A stretch of DNA of 27,218 nucleotides, taken from a virus. Position 1 is the first letter of the stretch. The number at the start of each line of letters is the position of its first letter. Location of the stretch: IMG/VR virus record IMGVR_UViG_3300034061_001833, positions 1-27,218 of that record. One strand, 5' to 3'. Of the stretch, positions 791 through 11,340 are shown piece after piece. The position numbers and the translations under genes were made by a program. Under the pieces are notes generated by a model that was given only the letters and a program-made list of their open reading frames with translations, did no database searches and was not told the DNA's origin.

Positions 791-2410
791 ATGATAGACA
801 ATGGCATGGGGTATTCCCCGAAGGACCTTCAGTTTGGAGAAGAGGGTCGTAAGAAACTAATCAGTGGTATTTCAAAAATTGCAACTGCAGTCAAGAGCAC
901 ATTAGGACCGAGGGGTAACACTGTGTTGATTGAGTCGCCATCACACACGAGCAGTATAACTGTGACCAAGGATGGTGTGACGGTAGCCAAGTCAATTGAC
1001 TTGATGGACCCTGTAGAGAACCTTGCGGTAAGGATGATGAAAGAGGCAGCAGACAAGACTGCCAACTCAGCGGGTGATGGTACGACAACTGCCATTGTGT
1101 TGACTGAGGCTATTGTCAAAGCGGGTGACGAGTTGATGGACAGTGACACGAACAGGACGCTTGTGTTGCGAGAGATTGTGGAGATGGGCAACAAGATAGT
1201 GGAGAAGCTTGCGCAAAAGAACGTGAAGCTAACCGAGGACACCTTGTTGGATGTAGCTAAAATCTCTGCGAACAATGACAAGACTATTGGTGAGACCATT
1301 GCCAAGGTATACAAAGAGATTGGTGAGAATGGTATTGTGACAGTAGAGAAGTCGCAGACCACTGAGACATATGCTGAGTCAACGCACGGGTTCAAGGTAC
1401 AGAGAGGGTATTACTCACCGCTGTTCATCAATGACCAAAAGAAGGACGAGTGCATCTATGAGGATGTGATGGTGCTAATCAGTGACGCTGAGATACACAA
1501 CTTGCTGCAGATTGAGCCGGTGCTGAAACCAATTATCCAAGAGGGTAAGAAGCTTCTGATTATTGCTCCGTGCTCAGTAAACGTGGTGAACACATTGGCT
1601 GCGAATGTGGTCAAGAACAATCTGAAGGTATGTGCTATTGAGCCACCATCATTTGGGTATAAGAAGCATGAGCTGATGCAAGACATTGCGTTGGCTGTGG
1701 GTGCTAAGTATTTCTCAGAGAAGACAGGTGACGACTTGAGCCTAATCTCATATGCTGACCTTGGTCATGCTGCAAAGATTATCATTGACTCGAAGAGCAC
1801 TGTGATAATCAACTCTGAGTTCAGAACAGACTTTGAGGAGATTGAGAACAGAGTTGCTCAGTTGTGGGAGGCGCATAAGGCTGCCAACAAGAAGCACGAG
1901 AAGGAGTTCATCCTCTCAAGGATAGCATCACTGACAGGTGGCGTGGGTGTCATCTACGTAGGTGGTACAACTGACATAGAGCAGAAGGAGCTGTATGACC
2001 GTGTCGATGACGCAGTGTGTGCAGTACGTTCAGCATTAGAGGAGGGCATCCTTCCCGGTGCAGGCAAAGCGTTATTCGAGGAGGCACTTGCTATTGTTGA
2101 CGAGGCTAATGACAGCAAGGAGAGAACTATTGCCAAGAAGATTCTTCACACCGCACTGCAGATACCGTTGATGCAGATACTGCTGAACGCAGGCATGAAC
2201 GGGCATGATGTGTATGCTGACAGATATATGCGTCAGTCAGGTCGTGGGTACAATGTGGTAACAGGGACCTATGGTGACCTGATTGAGATGGGTGTGATTG
2301 ACCCGGTGAAGGTGACAAGGTCAGCCCTGCAGAACGCAATAAGTGTGGCAACAACAATCCTATCAACCAATGCCATCATCACAATGGCGAGAACCTACGA
2401 TACGAAATGA
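791..2410 (+). CDS. groEL: chaperonin GroEL (60 kDa)
   Basis: A phage-encoded ATP-dependent folding chamber subunit, acting in the host cytoplasm, probably on virion proteins. At 539 aa it is nearly the bacterial length (about 548). Family marks run in order: VKSTLGPRGNTVLIE near residues 34-48; the ATP/magnesium loop GDGTTTA with Asp96 (equivalent to E. coli Asp87); an apical domain including RGYYSPLFIN; GGVGVIYVGGTTD; the hydrolysis Asp407 in DRVDDAV (equivalent to Asp398); and the closing IDPVKVTRSALQNA motif. The catalytic positions look intact. The C-terminus stops at ...MARTYDTK and lacks the usual Gly-Gly-Met tail. The gene comes before groES, the reverse of the common bacterial order, and overlaps it by ATGA. 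The ATG at 791 sits 22 bases past a promoter. The identification is secure. Confidence 0.97.
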   Translation: MIDNGMGYSPKDLQFGEEGRKKLISGISKIATAVKSTLGPRGNTVLIESPSHTSSITVTKDGVTVAKSIDLMDPVENLAVRMMKEAADKTANSAGDGTTTAIVLTEAIVKAGDELMDSDTNRTLVLREIVEMGNKIVEKLAQKNVKLTEDTLLDVAKISANNDKTIGETIAKVYKEIGENGIVTVEKSQTTETYAESTHGFKVQRGYYSPLFINDQKKDECIYEDVMVLISDAEIHNLLQIEPVLKPIIQEGKKLLIIAPCSVNVVNTLAANVVKNNLKVCAIEPPSFGYKKHELMQDIALAVGAKYFSEKTGDDLSLISYADLGHAAKIIIDSKSTVIINSEFRTDFEEIENRVAQLWEAHKAANKKHEKEFILSRIASLTGGVGVIYVGGTTDIEQKELYDRVDDAVCAVRSALEEGILPGAGKALFEEALAIVDEANDSKERTIAKKILHTALQIPLMQILLNAGMNGHDVYADRYMRQSGRGYNVVTGTYGDLIEMGVIDPVKVTRSALQNAISVATTILSTNAIITMARTYDTK

Positions 2411-2682
2411 TAGCAATAGGTAAAAACATAATTGTCAACGACATTGACGAGGAGATTAAAACTGAGTCAGGGTTGTTGCTATCCGCAGAGGATGCACGTG
2501 GGTTCAGATACAAGAAGGCAACTGTCGTTGTTCCGGGTACTGAGGTGTCTGTGATAAACGCAGGCGATGAGATATACTACGACAAGTCGCACTCCTACAC
2601 AATGGTGATAGGCGATAAGCCATACACGATTATTCAGGAACGTGATGTCGTTGTTGTTTCAGATAGGCATTCATCTCTTTGA
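2407..2682 (+). CDS. groES: co-chaperonin GroES (10 kDa)
   Basis: The lid of the GroEL chamber, 91 aa, against 95-100 in bacteria and about 110 for T4 gp31. It begins with GKNIIVND (matching HDRVIVKR). It then has a mobile-loop region around residues 17-32 with a hydrophobic LLL in place of the IVL that docks on GroEL. A VVPGTE turn, the NAGDEIYYD motif (matching KVGDIVIF) and a closing IIQERDVVVV strand follow. The start codon overlaps the groEL stop (ATGA), so the two are translationally coupled in a groEL-groES order. Its 3' end overlaps the end of the convergent minus-strand regulator gene by 53 bp, and transcription is expected to stop at a hairpin inside that gene. Confidence 0.93.
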   Translation: MIAIGKNIIVNDIDEEIKTESGLLLSAEDARGFRYKKATVVVPGTEVSVINAGDEIYYDKSHSYTMVIGDKPYTIIQERDVVVVSDRHSSL

Positions 2683-3091
2683 TGAACTCTCTGTAACGCT
2701 TATCCATGTAAGATACATTCTTTGCGAAGATTGGATTATTTGACTGACTAACGGGGATTTCTTCCCCGTTTAGTTTTTTATACATGGATGAGATTACACG
2801 CTTACCCTTGTATGAGATTTCATACAGAGCCTTCTGCTTCTTCTTTTGGTCATAGTCCCTGAACTTTGAAATCCAACCATCTCTCAGAAGTTTATCGAAT
2901 CGGTTCTCATCCCAAGACATGAGCTTATTGAACTCATCGAACTTCTCCTTCGGAAAGTATTTCTCTGAGTAGAGGAACAGCAGCATATCAAGTTCGCACT
3001 GAGTTAAGCCATACTTGGCTTTCATGAAATACCTGATGACTCTCCAAAACTTTAGGTAGTCGCTTGTGGGGGTGTATCCGTTATATGACAT
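2630..3091 (-). CDS. winged-helix DNA-binding protein, probable transcription regulator
   Basis: This is the only minus-strand gene in the window (153 aa). The pattern fits a MarR-like winged helix: a helix LTQCELDMLLFLYSEKYF around residues 29-46, a recognition-helix-like NRFDKLLRDGWISKFRDY around 67-84, then a wing strand ALYEISYKGKRVISSMYKKL. I call the family by pattern, not by a specific match. The frame extends to 3223, but I choose the ATG at 3091 because a minus-strand promoter element lies at 3116-3123, about 20 bases upstream, and the residues before it do not belong to the fold. It is transcribed away from the 3129 gene through an overlapping promoter, which suggests that it may control that gene, itself, or both. 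Confidence 0.75.
   Translation of the reverse strand: MSYNGYTPTSDYLKFWRVIRYFMKAKYGLTQCELDMLLFLYSEKYFPKEKFDEFNKLMSWDENRFDKLLRDGWISKFRDYDQKKKQKALYEISYKGKRVISSMYKKLNGEEIPVSQSNNPIFAKNVSYMDKRYREFIKEMNAYLKQQRHHVPE
2748..2779 (+). terminator. groEL-groES terminator, embedded antisense in the regulator gene
   Basis: ACGGGGA at 2751-2757 pairs with TCCCCGT at 2763-2769 around a TTTCT loop. The stem is extended by CTA/TAG past a one-base bulge and followed by six Ts at 2774-2779. The T-tract exists only on the plus strand, so it would stop groEL-groES transcription but not the minus-strand gene that encodes it. Confidence 0.8.
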
Positions 3092-3105
3092 TAGATTTAA
3101 TTTAT

Positions 3106-3113
3106 TACTTTTG
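3106..3113 (+). promoter_or_regulatory. -7 promoter element for the 3129-3386 gene
   Basis: TACTTTTG fits TAnnTTTG. Transcription would start near 3120, leaving a leader of only about 9 bases before the ATG at 3129. It overlaps the minus-strand promoter described next. Confidence 0.6.
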
Positions 3114-3115
3114 TA

Positions 3116-3123
3116 CAAAGTTA
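3116..3123 (-). promoter_or_regulatory. -7 promoter element for the minus-strand winged-helix gene
   Basis: CAAAGTTA on the plus strand reads TAACTTTG on the minus strand, the same form found ahead of the scaffold and 4697 genes. It lies about 20 bases upstream of the regulator ATG (3089-3091). The two opposite -7 boxes are only 2 bp apart, within a near-dyad centred on TGTACA. Confidence 0.65.
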
Positions 3124-3128
3124 CTGAA

Positions 3129-3386
3129 ATGTCAGGTGCAAAAACGTATTTGGCTGATGGTTTCGATGAAGCAATCATTGGTATGGAATGCACGGGTGCT
3201 ATACCACGTGTAGTGTATAGCATAAAGTTAATGGTTCACATTCTGTGCAATCGTGACGGTATGACTGAGGATGAGGCTATTGAGTTCTTGGATTATAACG
3301 TCATTGGCAGTTATATGGGTGAGGGCACTCCACTGTATGTTGACGAGATGAGTGTAGAGGACATCAGGAACTACGAGTTCGATTAA
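3129..3386 (+). CDS. conserved small phage protein of unknown function (85 aa)
   Basis: It has an acidic character. The order DGFDEAIIGME ... VVYSIKLMVHILCNRDGMTEDEAIEFLDYNVIGSYMGEGTPLYVDEM matches a short protein I have often seen in unrelated phages, with 'RDGM..EEA.E....NV.GAY.GE.TP' as its core. No biochemical role is known to me. I start at the ATG at 3129 because the promoter at 3106-3113 would start the transcript near 3120, and the residues encoded further upstream (from 3066) do not fit the family. The gene sits back to back with the winged-helix regulator and leads the following run of small genes. Confidence 0.75.
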   Translation: MSGAKTYLADGFDEAIIGMECTGAIPRVVYSIKLMVHILCNRDGMTEDEAIEFLDYNVIGSYMGEGTPLYVDEMSVEDIRNYEFD

Positions 3387-3391
3387 TTTAT

Positions 3392-3511
3392 ATGACAATG
3401 GCAGAGAAAAACGAACAACAGAAACAAACCAAACTGTTGGTCAGCGCAAAGGTAAAATGGTCCCCAAGCAAAACTGCTTCTCCAAGTAAAAAATGGAAGA
3501 AGGGAAGTTAA
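3392..3511 (+). CDS. very small lysine-rich protein (39 aa)
   Basis: The ATG at 3392 opens a frame of 39 codons that closes with TAA at 3509-3511. A second in-frame ATG at 3398 is an alternative start. The product is strongly basic, with repeated K, a KVKWSPSKTASPSKKWKKGS C-terminus and two tryptophans, resembling other tiny basic proteins in this cluster. It starts 5 bases after the previous stop, so the two are probably co-transcribed. I recognise no family. A DNA- or RNA-binding role is inference from charge alone. Confidence 0.5.
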   Translation: MTMAEKNEQQKQTKLLVSAKVKWSPSKTASPSKKWKKGS

Positions 3512-3544
3512 AAAATAACCATATTTGAAAAAAGAAAAAATAAT

Positions 3545-3552
3545 TATATTTG
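3545..3552 (+). promoter_or_regulatory. possible -7 promoter element before the 3557 gene
   Basis: TATATTTG fits TAnnTTTG and lies in a 45-base gap. Its position is awkward: transcription would begin at or just after the ATG at 3557, implying a leaderless mRNA or use of the ATG at 3569 or 3578. A related ATATTTGAAA copy precedes it at 3521-3530. Confidence 0.3.
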
Positions 3553-3556
3553 AAAC

Positions 3557-3952
3557 ATGAAAAAGACAATGAAATCGATGTCTTCTACCCCTCCGAAGCA
3601 AACGAGGAAACAGAAGAAAACGGAGTTCGATAATAACTTGAGCTCAGGTGTATACACGAAGTATAAGAAATCCGTTCCTGCCGTAAGCAAAGATAATACT
3701 CTCGTGTATAAACAAGGACCCAAAGTTAATTATGGTGGAACAATCCGTTCTGCTGTAGAGGCATCTCCTTACGGAAGAGCAAAGACTGTACGCAAAGTTG
3801 CAGAAGCTACCGGTAAAACAAAAAAATATGTAAGAGACACTGTTCCTACTAAGGGCAGAACATTTGTTAAAAAGGTGGGAGGAGCTCTCAAAAGTGGGAA
3901 CCAAGGTTCAGGAAGTTTCCCGGGGTGGAGGGCGAGCAAGTGCAAGAACTAA
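3557..3952 (+). CDS. basic protein of unknown function (131 aa)
   Basis: The protein is highly basic and largely disordered-looking. The N-terminus is K/S/T/P-rich (residues 1-25). The middle section contains VRKVAEATGKTKKYVRDTVPTKGRTFVKKVGGAL, which could form amphipathic helices. No catalytic motif is visible. ATGs at 3569 and 3578 are possible starts if the promoter at 3545-3552 is real. Residues 113-122 (SGNQGSGSFP) are encoded by a 31-base segment identical to one in the 1549-residue muzzle gene far downstream, so the C-terminus may be partly borrowed sequence. Its place among small basic proteins suggests a virion or DNA-binding role, which is inference. Confidence 0.6.
   Translation: MKKTMKSMSSTPPKQTRKQKKTEFDNNLSSGVYTKYKKSVPAVSKDNTLVYKQGPKVNYGGTIRSAVEASPYGRAKTVRKVAEATGKTKKYVRDTVPTKGRTFVKKVGGALKSGNQGSGSFPGWRASKCKN
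3892..3922 (+). repeat. 31-bp exact direct repeat, copy 1
   Basis: Identical to 25735-25765 over all 31 bases; the flanking bases differ on both sides. It contains nested dyads: GAACC/GGTTC at 3898-3909 with a 2-base spacer, and GGGAA/TTCCC at the edges. It encodes SGNQGSGSFP here. Confidence 0.95.
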
Positions 3953-4004
3953 GAAGAAGTGAGTGACCAACATTGCCAAGTGGATACACTAAAAGGGGCA
4001 GGTA

Positions 4005-4295
4005 ATGGCAGACAAAAGCAAAATGAAGTGTAACGTGCCTCGTACTTCTGACCGTGCGGGTAAGAAGATGATGGTAAAGGGGTGTCAAGGTGGCAAAGAG
4101 AAGCTACTTCATTTCGGAGCCAAGGGTTATGGTCACAATTATTCCACTGCTGCACGTAAAAGTTTCAAGGCTCGTCACAGTTGTGACACCGCAACCGATA
4201 AATTGACCCCAAGATATTGGTCTTGCAAGAAATTATGGGCAGGTCCGGGTGGTTCAACACAGTCATCACCAAAAAGTAGGAGGGGAAAGTACTGA
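4005..4295 (+). CDS. small cysteine-containing basic protein with the virus-associated ARH-CD...YWSC motif (96 aa)
   Basis: The C-terminal half carries SFKARHSCDTATDKLTPRYWSCKKLW (shown in pieces: FKARHSCD, then LTPRYWSCKKLW, about residues 53-80). I know this pattern from memory as a recurring short motif in marine phages and large eukaryotic viruses, preceded, as here, by a VKGCQGGKEKL...FGAKGYG stretch. Two Cys and a His in it could bind metal. The C-terminal tail is S/R/K-rich. The stop (4293-4295) overlaps the next ATG (4295) as TGATG, so translation of the two is coupled. The function is not established. The neighbour also belongs to a virus-wide family, which argues that the pair works together. 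Confidence 0.7.
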   Translation: MADKSKMKCNVPRTSDRAGKKMMVKGCQGGKEKLLHFGAKGYGHNYSTAARKSFKARHSCDTATDKLTPRYWSCKKLWAGPGGSTQSSPKSRRGKY

Positions 4296-10283: not shown

Positions 10284-10846
10284 TGCAGTCTCCGTTCTAC
10301 TTTATAGCAAGACCAATTGACGGCAAGAGATACGACAACACCAAGAAGATAGAAGGTATTGACATCATATTCAATACATCTGAAGAAGACCATCGTTTCT
10401 CGAACCGAAAGGCAGAGGTAATTGAATTGCCATTGGGGTATAGTGGTCCCATTGAAAAGGGAGATACTCTTCTTGTGCACCACAATACATTCAAGTTTTA
10501 CAACGACATCAAGGGCAGGCGCAAGAGTGGTAAGAGCTTCTTCAAGGAAGACTTATTCTTTATTGAGGCTGACCAATTCTTTTTGTACAACAAGGGTGGT
10601 AATTGGAATGCATATGACAGGTACTGCTTTGTGAAGCCTATCCCACCTGAAGAGTCATACGTAAAGAAGCCAACTACTCATGAGCCACTCATGGGTATTA
10701 TGGTGTATCCAAATGAAAAGCTATTGTCGTATGGAGTAAACCCCGGAGACAAAGTGTGCTTTCAGCCTGAAAGCGAATATGAGTTTTATGTCGATGGAGA
10801 GAAGCTCTATCGTATGTTCGACCACCAAATAACAATCAAATTATGA
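10283..10846 (+). CDS. tandem GroES-like protein (187 aa), possible second co-chaperonin
   Basis: Two Cpn10-like halves are visible. In the first (residues 5-115), RKAEVIELPLGYSG...IEKGDTLLVHHNTFKFYN follows the 'RGEVLAVG...VKVGDIVIFND' order of GroES, and FFIEADQFFLY matches the closing 'VLIMSESDILAI'. In the second (about 120-187), CFVKPIPPEE...GIMVYPNEKLLSYGVNPGDKVCFQPESEYEFY...YRMFDHQITI repeats it. A KGRRKSGKSFFKED insertion lies between strands of the first half. The halves are diverged, and the LLL/IVL docking tripeptide is not obvious. So it may cap GroEL differently from GroES, or be a structural adaptation of the fold. The start is fixed by TAATG and the end overlaps the next ATG. 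Confidence 0.6.
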   Translation: MQSPFYFIARPIDGKRYDNTKKIEGIDIIFNTSEEDHRFSNRKAEVIELPLGYSGPIEKGDTLLVHHNTFKFYNDIKGRRKSGKSFFKEDLFFIEADQFFLYNKGGNWNAYDRYCFVKPIPPEESYVKKPTTHEPLMGIMVYPNEKLLSYGVNPGDKVCFQPESEYEFYVDGEKLYRMFDHQITIKL

Positions 10847-11340
10847 ATCTAATCGTATTGGACAATGTGTTGATAGACCCGTCAGGGTACGTGCGTGATG
10901 CATTGTCTTATGGCTTTGAAGAGGTCTTTGATTCCGACAAAGTATTCAAAGGCATACAGCCAAGGAGTGATGATGAGTTTCAGCACTTCATTGAAAACTA
11001 CTTTTCGTTTAAGTACGAGACAGTTTACAATTTCATCAGGCAGTCTCCTGAGAAACAGGACGAGCCAAACTTCGTGCACACTGATGAGAACATGGGTGAC
11101 TTGCTTGCGCTATTGTATCTAAATGAATCCCATCCTGATACTGACGGGACTATCATCTATGACAACGATGGTGGCAAGATGTGCTCAGTGCATATGAAAT
11201 TCAATCGAGCAGTTATCTTTGGAACCCGGTTCCCACATTCTCGTGCGCTGTTTGAGAACTTTGGGAATGGTGATGACTCACGACTTGTTCAAGTTTTATT
11301 CTTAAAAGTTCGCAAAGATGGACCCGAAGGAACTGCGTGA
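10843..11340 (+). CDS. 2-oxoglutarate/Fe(II) oxygenase-like protein (165 aa)
   Basis: The sequence order fits the double-stranded beta-helix of the non-haem iron oxygenases, close to the DUF6445 group. FVHTDENMGDLLALLYLN gives the His79-x-Asp81 iron motif. TIIYDNDGG and RAVIFGTRFPHSR follow, with distal His132. ENFGNGDDSRLVQVLFL then gives Arg147, the residue expected to hold 2-oxoglutarate. The first 60 residues (NVLIDPSGYVRDALSYGFEEVF) are a helical N-terminal domain. All four key residues are present, so activity is plausible; the substrate (protein, DNA base or metabolite) is unknown. The start overlaps the previous stop by 4 bases and the end overlaps the small-terminase candidate by 23. 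Confidence 0.7.
   Translation: MNLIVLDNVLIDPSGYVRDALSYGFEEVFDSDKVFKGIQPRSDDEFQHFIENYFSFKYETVYNFIRQSPEKQDEPNFVHTDENMGDLLALLYLNESHPDTDGTIIYDNDGGKMCSVHMKFNRAVIFGTRFPHSRALFENFGNGDDSRLVQVLFLKVRKDGPEGTA

Follow-up and report, generated by a model that had tools for sequence, protein, structure and literature searches.

Facing Bacteroidota-type -7 boxes at a conserved tailed-phage junction: a probable bidirectional promoter between a MarR-like regulator gene and the virion arm

The DNA stretch analyzed here (henceforth the window; 27,218 nucleotides of IMG/VR record IMGVR_UViG_3300034061_001833) is part of a tailed-phage genome and encodes groEL, groES, an amidase, a terminase, a portal protein and a virion structural protein. 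All of its convincing genes are read rightward except the one at 2630-3091 (-), here termed rep; the other long minus-strand open reading frames sit inside plus-strand genes, and the reading-frame map bears out the initial observation that transcription changes direction nowhere else in the window. A gap of 37 bases separates the start of rep (3091) from the first rightward gene, which starts at 3129, and holds both of the promoter elements considered in this work (Table 1). Nucleotide searches against phages returned one distant record only, and the MAG bins of relatives were assigned to Bacteroidetes, Cytophagales, Aureispira and Lacinutrix, among others. Elsewhere in the window, the protein encoded at 10843-11340 (+) is weakly similar to 2OG-Fe(II) oxygenases (E 0.001, below the cut-off), and TATATTTG at 3545-3552 (+), with a TTTG 17 bp upstream and directly before the gene at 3557, constitutes the best single Bacteroidota-type promoter.

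Table 1. Genes and predicted regulatory elements around the divergent junction
Feature	Position	Strand	Basis or remark
groEL	791..2410	+	PHROG 5725, E 4e-132
groES	2407..2682	+	Pfam Cpn10, E 1e-8; convergent 53 bp overlap with 3' end of rep
rep, winged-helix (MarR-like) regulator, 153 aa	2630..3091	-	homologues, predicted fold, PHROG match
intrinsic terminator of groEL-groES (predicted), CTAACGGGGATTTCTTCCCCGTTTAGTTTTTT	2748..2779	+	antisense in rep, codons of KKLNGEEIPV
-7 box of rightward promoter, TACTTTTG	3106..3113	+	matches TAnnTTTG; predicted TSS near 3118; leader ~11 nt
-7 box of leftward promoter, TAACTTTG	3116..3123	-	matches TAnnTTTG; predicted TSS near 3111; leader ~20 nt
first rightward gene, 85 aa	3129..3386	+	PHROG 13182; same first gene in L006/L007, others elsewhere
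37-aa reading frame (MAEKNEQQKQTK...)	3398..3511	+	start equals L002's first rightward gene

The identification of rep as a winged-helix regulator, already put forward in the original prediction, is well supported by structure modeling and homology. The best AlphaFold2 model (pLDDT 82.5; 58-64 for the other four of five) has the topology H-H-H-H-E-E-H-H, in which a two-strand wing is preceded by four helices and followed by two, yielding a predicted MarR-like winged-helix fold with flanking, putative dimer helices. The best PDB matches obtained with Foldseek are MarR-type, with probability 1.00 but an E-value of ~1e-3 and a TM-score of ~0.44. The protein also matches PHROG 12817, a transcriptional regulator family (E 0.002), and the profile of its own family weakly matches a MarR-family chain when compared to PDB sequences (E 0.034). 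No Pfam family, MarR included, matches the window protein at cut-off, and its relation to MarR is best described as a likeness, not an established membership. The homologue in MW202828, 46% identical to rep, is annotated as 'repressor protein'. An in-frame ATG upstream, at 3223, was discarded as the start of rep, a stop codon intervening in most relatives.

Both boxes in the intergenic region are exact instances of the Bacteroidota -7 box, TAnnTTTG, and stand face to face within 18 bp. Their coordinates are exactly those first proposed, 2 bp apart, with the leftward box reading from 3123 to 3116. Single instances of TAnnTTTG are no more frequent in the window than chance predicts (30 on the two strands together, where a first-order Markov model gives 23.5 +/- 4.6) and are uninformative; facing pairs with 0-6 bp between boxes are expected 0.08 times per window. 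The main argument for a promoter pair is its conservation. The transcription start sites (TSS) in Table 1 were predicted from the location of the box at -12 to -5 in the TSS map of F. psychrophilum (PMC9723704). They are 7 bp apart here and 5-14 bp apart across the relatives with facing boxes, and each predicted TSS falls within the -7 box of the opposite promoter. This geometry supports the proposal that a polymerase at one promoter would block the other.

The accompanying expectation that each -33 region lies inside the start of the opposite gene was borne out in part: the positions do fall there, but no TTTG is found at the right distance. In the window, none occurs on the plus strand with the spacer of ~20 bp, and the one on the minus strand has a spacer of 15. 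Nor was a conserved -33 column found in 18 aligned representatives with strict facing pairs. The -33 motif was not identifiable in F. johnsoniae (PMC7366714), and it may therefore not be a defining element in that organism.

To assess conservation, we collected relatives through a protein search with the minus-strand protein, which yielded 29 viral loci and 9 genome-contig loci, and added MW202828. Grouping at 90% identity resulted in 27 lineages, including that of the window. A strict facing pair (0-9 bp between boxes) is present in 19 of the 27 lineages, and a facing pair with one base of one box changed in 5 more, for a total of 24; in the remaining three (MW202828, L030 and L040) the boxes are arranged back to back, with 2-3 bp between them. 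The pair is also specific to this location. Of the 26 facing pairs with spacings of 0-6 bp that occur in 331 kb of sequence (the window, the MW202828 stretch and the 29 viral loci), 25 sit at this junction. A set of 549 gene starts, taken from the window, L001 and six near-complete relatives, contains no strict facing pair outside this junction, and none was found at the other divergent junctions of the near-complete relatives, some of which are short. The overlapping divergent promoters postulated from the window alone are hence supported, as a prediction, by exact facing boxes and by their persistence among relatives.

The same arrangement exists in host genomes, where it is rare. In ~65 Mb of genomes related to the Lacinutrix MAG, pairs of facing boxes with a spacing of 2 occur at ~0.9 per Mb (59, versus 34 in the reversed control); 13 of 19 examined non-viral pairs in host-family genomes lie between divergent ORFs, and none of 41 divergent gene pairs in a 400-kb sample contains a facing pair with a spacing of 0-6. 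The idea that host genomes abound in facing pairs was accordingly rejected.

Conservation of the junction does not extend to the gene on its right. The first plus-strand gene falls into ~20 families across relatives, according to a liberal BLAST grouping, and the one in the window has no regulator match in PHROGs or Pfam. The window, L002 and L003/L004 carry identical regulators and different first rightward genes. The cargo next to the promoter thus changes while the regulator remains identical, which identifies the promoter as the fixed edge of a module of exchangeable cargo. The small cargo genes at 3129-4004 are absent from L003/L004, where the gene found at 4005 in the window (MADKSKM...) directly adjoins the promoter. 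In MW202828 the regulator gene alone opposes an arm that starts with its divergent neighbor (~40.2 kb), includes the terminase, portal and structural genes and ends at 0.7 kb.

It could be argued that the overlap reflects mere compaction, with two ordinary promoters squeezed into a short gap, no regulatory meaning and no autoregulation. In most lineages only 37-44 bp separate rep from the first rightward gene, a space too short for two promoters with leaders of 11-20 nt to stay apart. Against this, strict overlap is kept in lineages with larger gaps of 50-88 bp (L013, 88 bp; L024, 70; L034, 57), it persists with one base off in L028, where the gap reaches 141 bp, and the other divergent junctions of these phages show no overlap even though some are short. 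On a contig of Lacinutrix (L039/L047), moreover, the overlap survives a small gene inserted between promoter and regulator. We consequently regard compaction as a rather unlikely explanation.

A second alternative, to which we assign a somewhat lower probability still, is that the pair serves mainly as a palindromic operator for a MarR-like dimer and resembles -7 boxes only secondarily. Dyads within their own divergent promoter are common binding sites of MarR-type regulators, a dyad is indeed present at the divergent promoter of rep, and in two lineages, L005 (TAACTTTGCACAAAGTTA) and L010 (TATCTTTGCTACAAAGATA), it approaches a perfect palindrome. However, the spacing of the boxes takes values of 0, 2, 3, 5, 6 or 9 bp across lineages, the letters at the n-n positions seldom agree between halves and show no covariation, the letters that are shared are exactly those of TAnnTTTG, and three lineages have the boxes back to back. 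The leftward box reads TA..TTTG in 18 of 18 aligned strict representatives, which were chosen with this pattern, so that its fixed letters are invariant by construction; outside the boxes, these representatives conserve little except an A+T-rich leader. Variable spacing and the lack of covariation at n-n favor, from sequence comparison, two independent promoters over one rigid repressor dyad. The TGTACA at 3112-3117, which the original prediction took for the center of the arrangement, is present in the window but not conserved, the spacer being variable in both length (0-9 bp) and letters, and it was for this reason rejected as an operator core.

Two further operator candidates were discarded. 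An AAATTwAAT box before the ATG initially seemed specific to rep and groEL in 14 loci, suggesting a shared operator, but it proved to be a general leader, because in the near-complete genomes (L088-L105) AATYWAAT is found before 60 of 518 starts, belonging to genes of every kind, as compared to 0.5% of random 25-mers. The ends of an inverted repeat at 3086-3103/3117-3134 are the ATGTCA start regions of the two genes, alike by coincidence, both proteins beginning with MS. No operator for the regulator was identifiable, the sole conserved leader motif being a general one. AATYWAAT probably serves these phages as a translation leader; like their presumed hosts, they may be devoid of Shine-Dalgarno sites.

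On its other side, the regulator gene converges with groEL-groES (791-2682), and groEL stays beside the regulator in most of the relatives that hold this stretch. A predicted intrinsic terminator starts 66 bp beyond the groES stop codon, antisense to the conserved rep peptide KKLNGEEIP. The hairpin in the window is stronger than those of all 60 synonymous-codon shuffles of rep. Ten lineages have a hairpin stronger than at least 59 of 60 such shuffles of the same gene, and the other lineages have no hairpin; L016/L018 use an alternative 5' arm, and L032 shows changed pairs. As judged from its sequence, this terminator should stop groEL-groES transcription that would otherwise run through rep and the junction.

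Taken together, the evidence leads us to propose, with moderate confidence, that the two host-type -7 boxes form a bidirectional promoter, mutually exclusive in use, limited by the regulator and insulated by the terminator, between the regulator gene and the head of the virion arm. Two face-to-face Bacteroidota sigma-A -7 boxes within 18 bp would constitute a single promoter region, from which one polymerase would transcribe leftward into the gene of the MarR-like regulator and another rightward into the head of the virion-gene arm. Because each start lies inside the opposite -7 box, the two open complexes would be mutually exclusive. The most likely binding site of the regulator is this short region or the DNA next to it, from where it would limit both its own synthesis and rightward transcription; such self-limiting repression, already suspected in the original prediction, is likely in view of the position of the gene and the fold of its product. 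The antisense terminator within rep would halt groEL-groES transcription before the junction, and rightward transcription would as a result depend on this promoter and later ones.

A variant of this proposal, which we consider doubtful, dispenses with a classical operator. Exclusion itself would then be the conserved device: a host-sigma bidirectional promoter, as a fixed port of the virion arm, would hold the regulator and virion transcripts in exclusive proportion whatever the cargo, and a terminator placed in the coding sequence of the regulator would shield it from the chaperonin operon.

A bistable lysogeny-type switch akin to lambda CI/Cro, the two-state layout initially envisaged, is highly unlikely: overlapping divergent promoters do adjoin a regulator, and the MW202828 annotation would fit, but on the plus side no second regulator was recognised, as judged by the first gene of the window, and that first gene is freely exchanged among relatives, no repeated operators were seen, and neither a tyrosine integrase (PF00589) nor a serine resolvase (PF00239) was found in any of 12 relatives, some of whose records may be incomplete. 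The junction more plausibly acts as a gate where the virion arm begins.

In lambda, PRM and PR are promoters with interfering polymerases beside a repressor gene, accompanied by a second repressor, a tripartite operator and an integrase. The phage junction resembles them in that two promoters, whose polymerases would interfere, adjoin a regulator gene, and differs in having no second repressor, tripartite operator or integrase and in that its boxes face each other. With respect to MarR autoregulators, such as CrtR (PMC7432914), rep shares the predicted winged-helix topology and a gene beside a divergent transcript, but lacks a Pfam MarR match. Relative to Bacteroidota sigma-A promoters (-7 TAnnTTTG, -33 TTTG), the -7 boxes are exact on both strands, and the pair lacks a -33 TTTG at the right distance.

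Among known systems the bidirectional promoters of E. coli come closest, and the phage pair is best read as their Bacteroidota counterpart. In E. coli such promoters commonly have start sites separated by 10, 18 or 23 bp (Warman et al., PMC12825309), and when one direction is strongly activated, competition between polymerases can repress the opposite one; at basal activity transcription is too low, and no competition takes place (PMC12825309). As in the structural definition of Warman/Grainger, the phage junction presents pseudo-symmetric elements on opposite strands with predicted starts within ~25 bp, and it shares with E. coli cases such as acrR/acrA the closely spaced divergent starts and the pairing of a regulator gene with a neighbor. 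By geometry, the 10-bp TSS class corresponds to two facing -10 elements ~3 bp apart, and the phage layout would express this in another sigma dialect. Unlike the E. coli promoters, the phage pair has TAnnTTTG boxes and a predicted TSS distance of 7 bp, and is conserved through exchange of the neighboring gene.

Most work on bidirectional promoters concerns E. coli and sigma-70, and text searches of open papers found no description of them in Bacteroidota or their phages. The 27 phage lineages, with their swapped neighbor, provide natural variants (spacings of 0-9 bp, facing or back to back) on which the relation between promoter overlap and transcript ratio can be tested, and the conserved junction offers a rule for locating regulators in these uncultured phages. 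For the phages themselves, this packing should prevent the regulator gene and the virion arm from switching on simultaneously from one piece of DNA.
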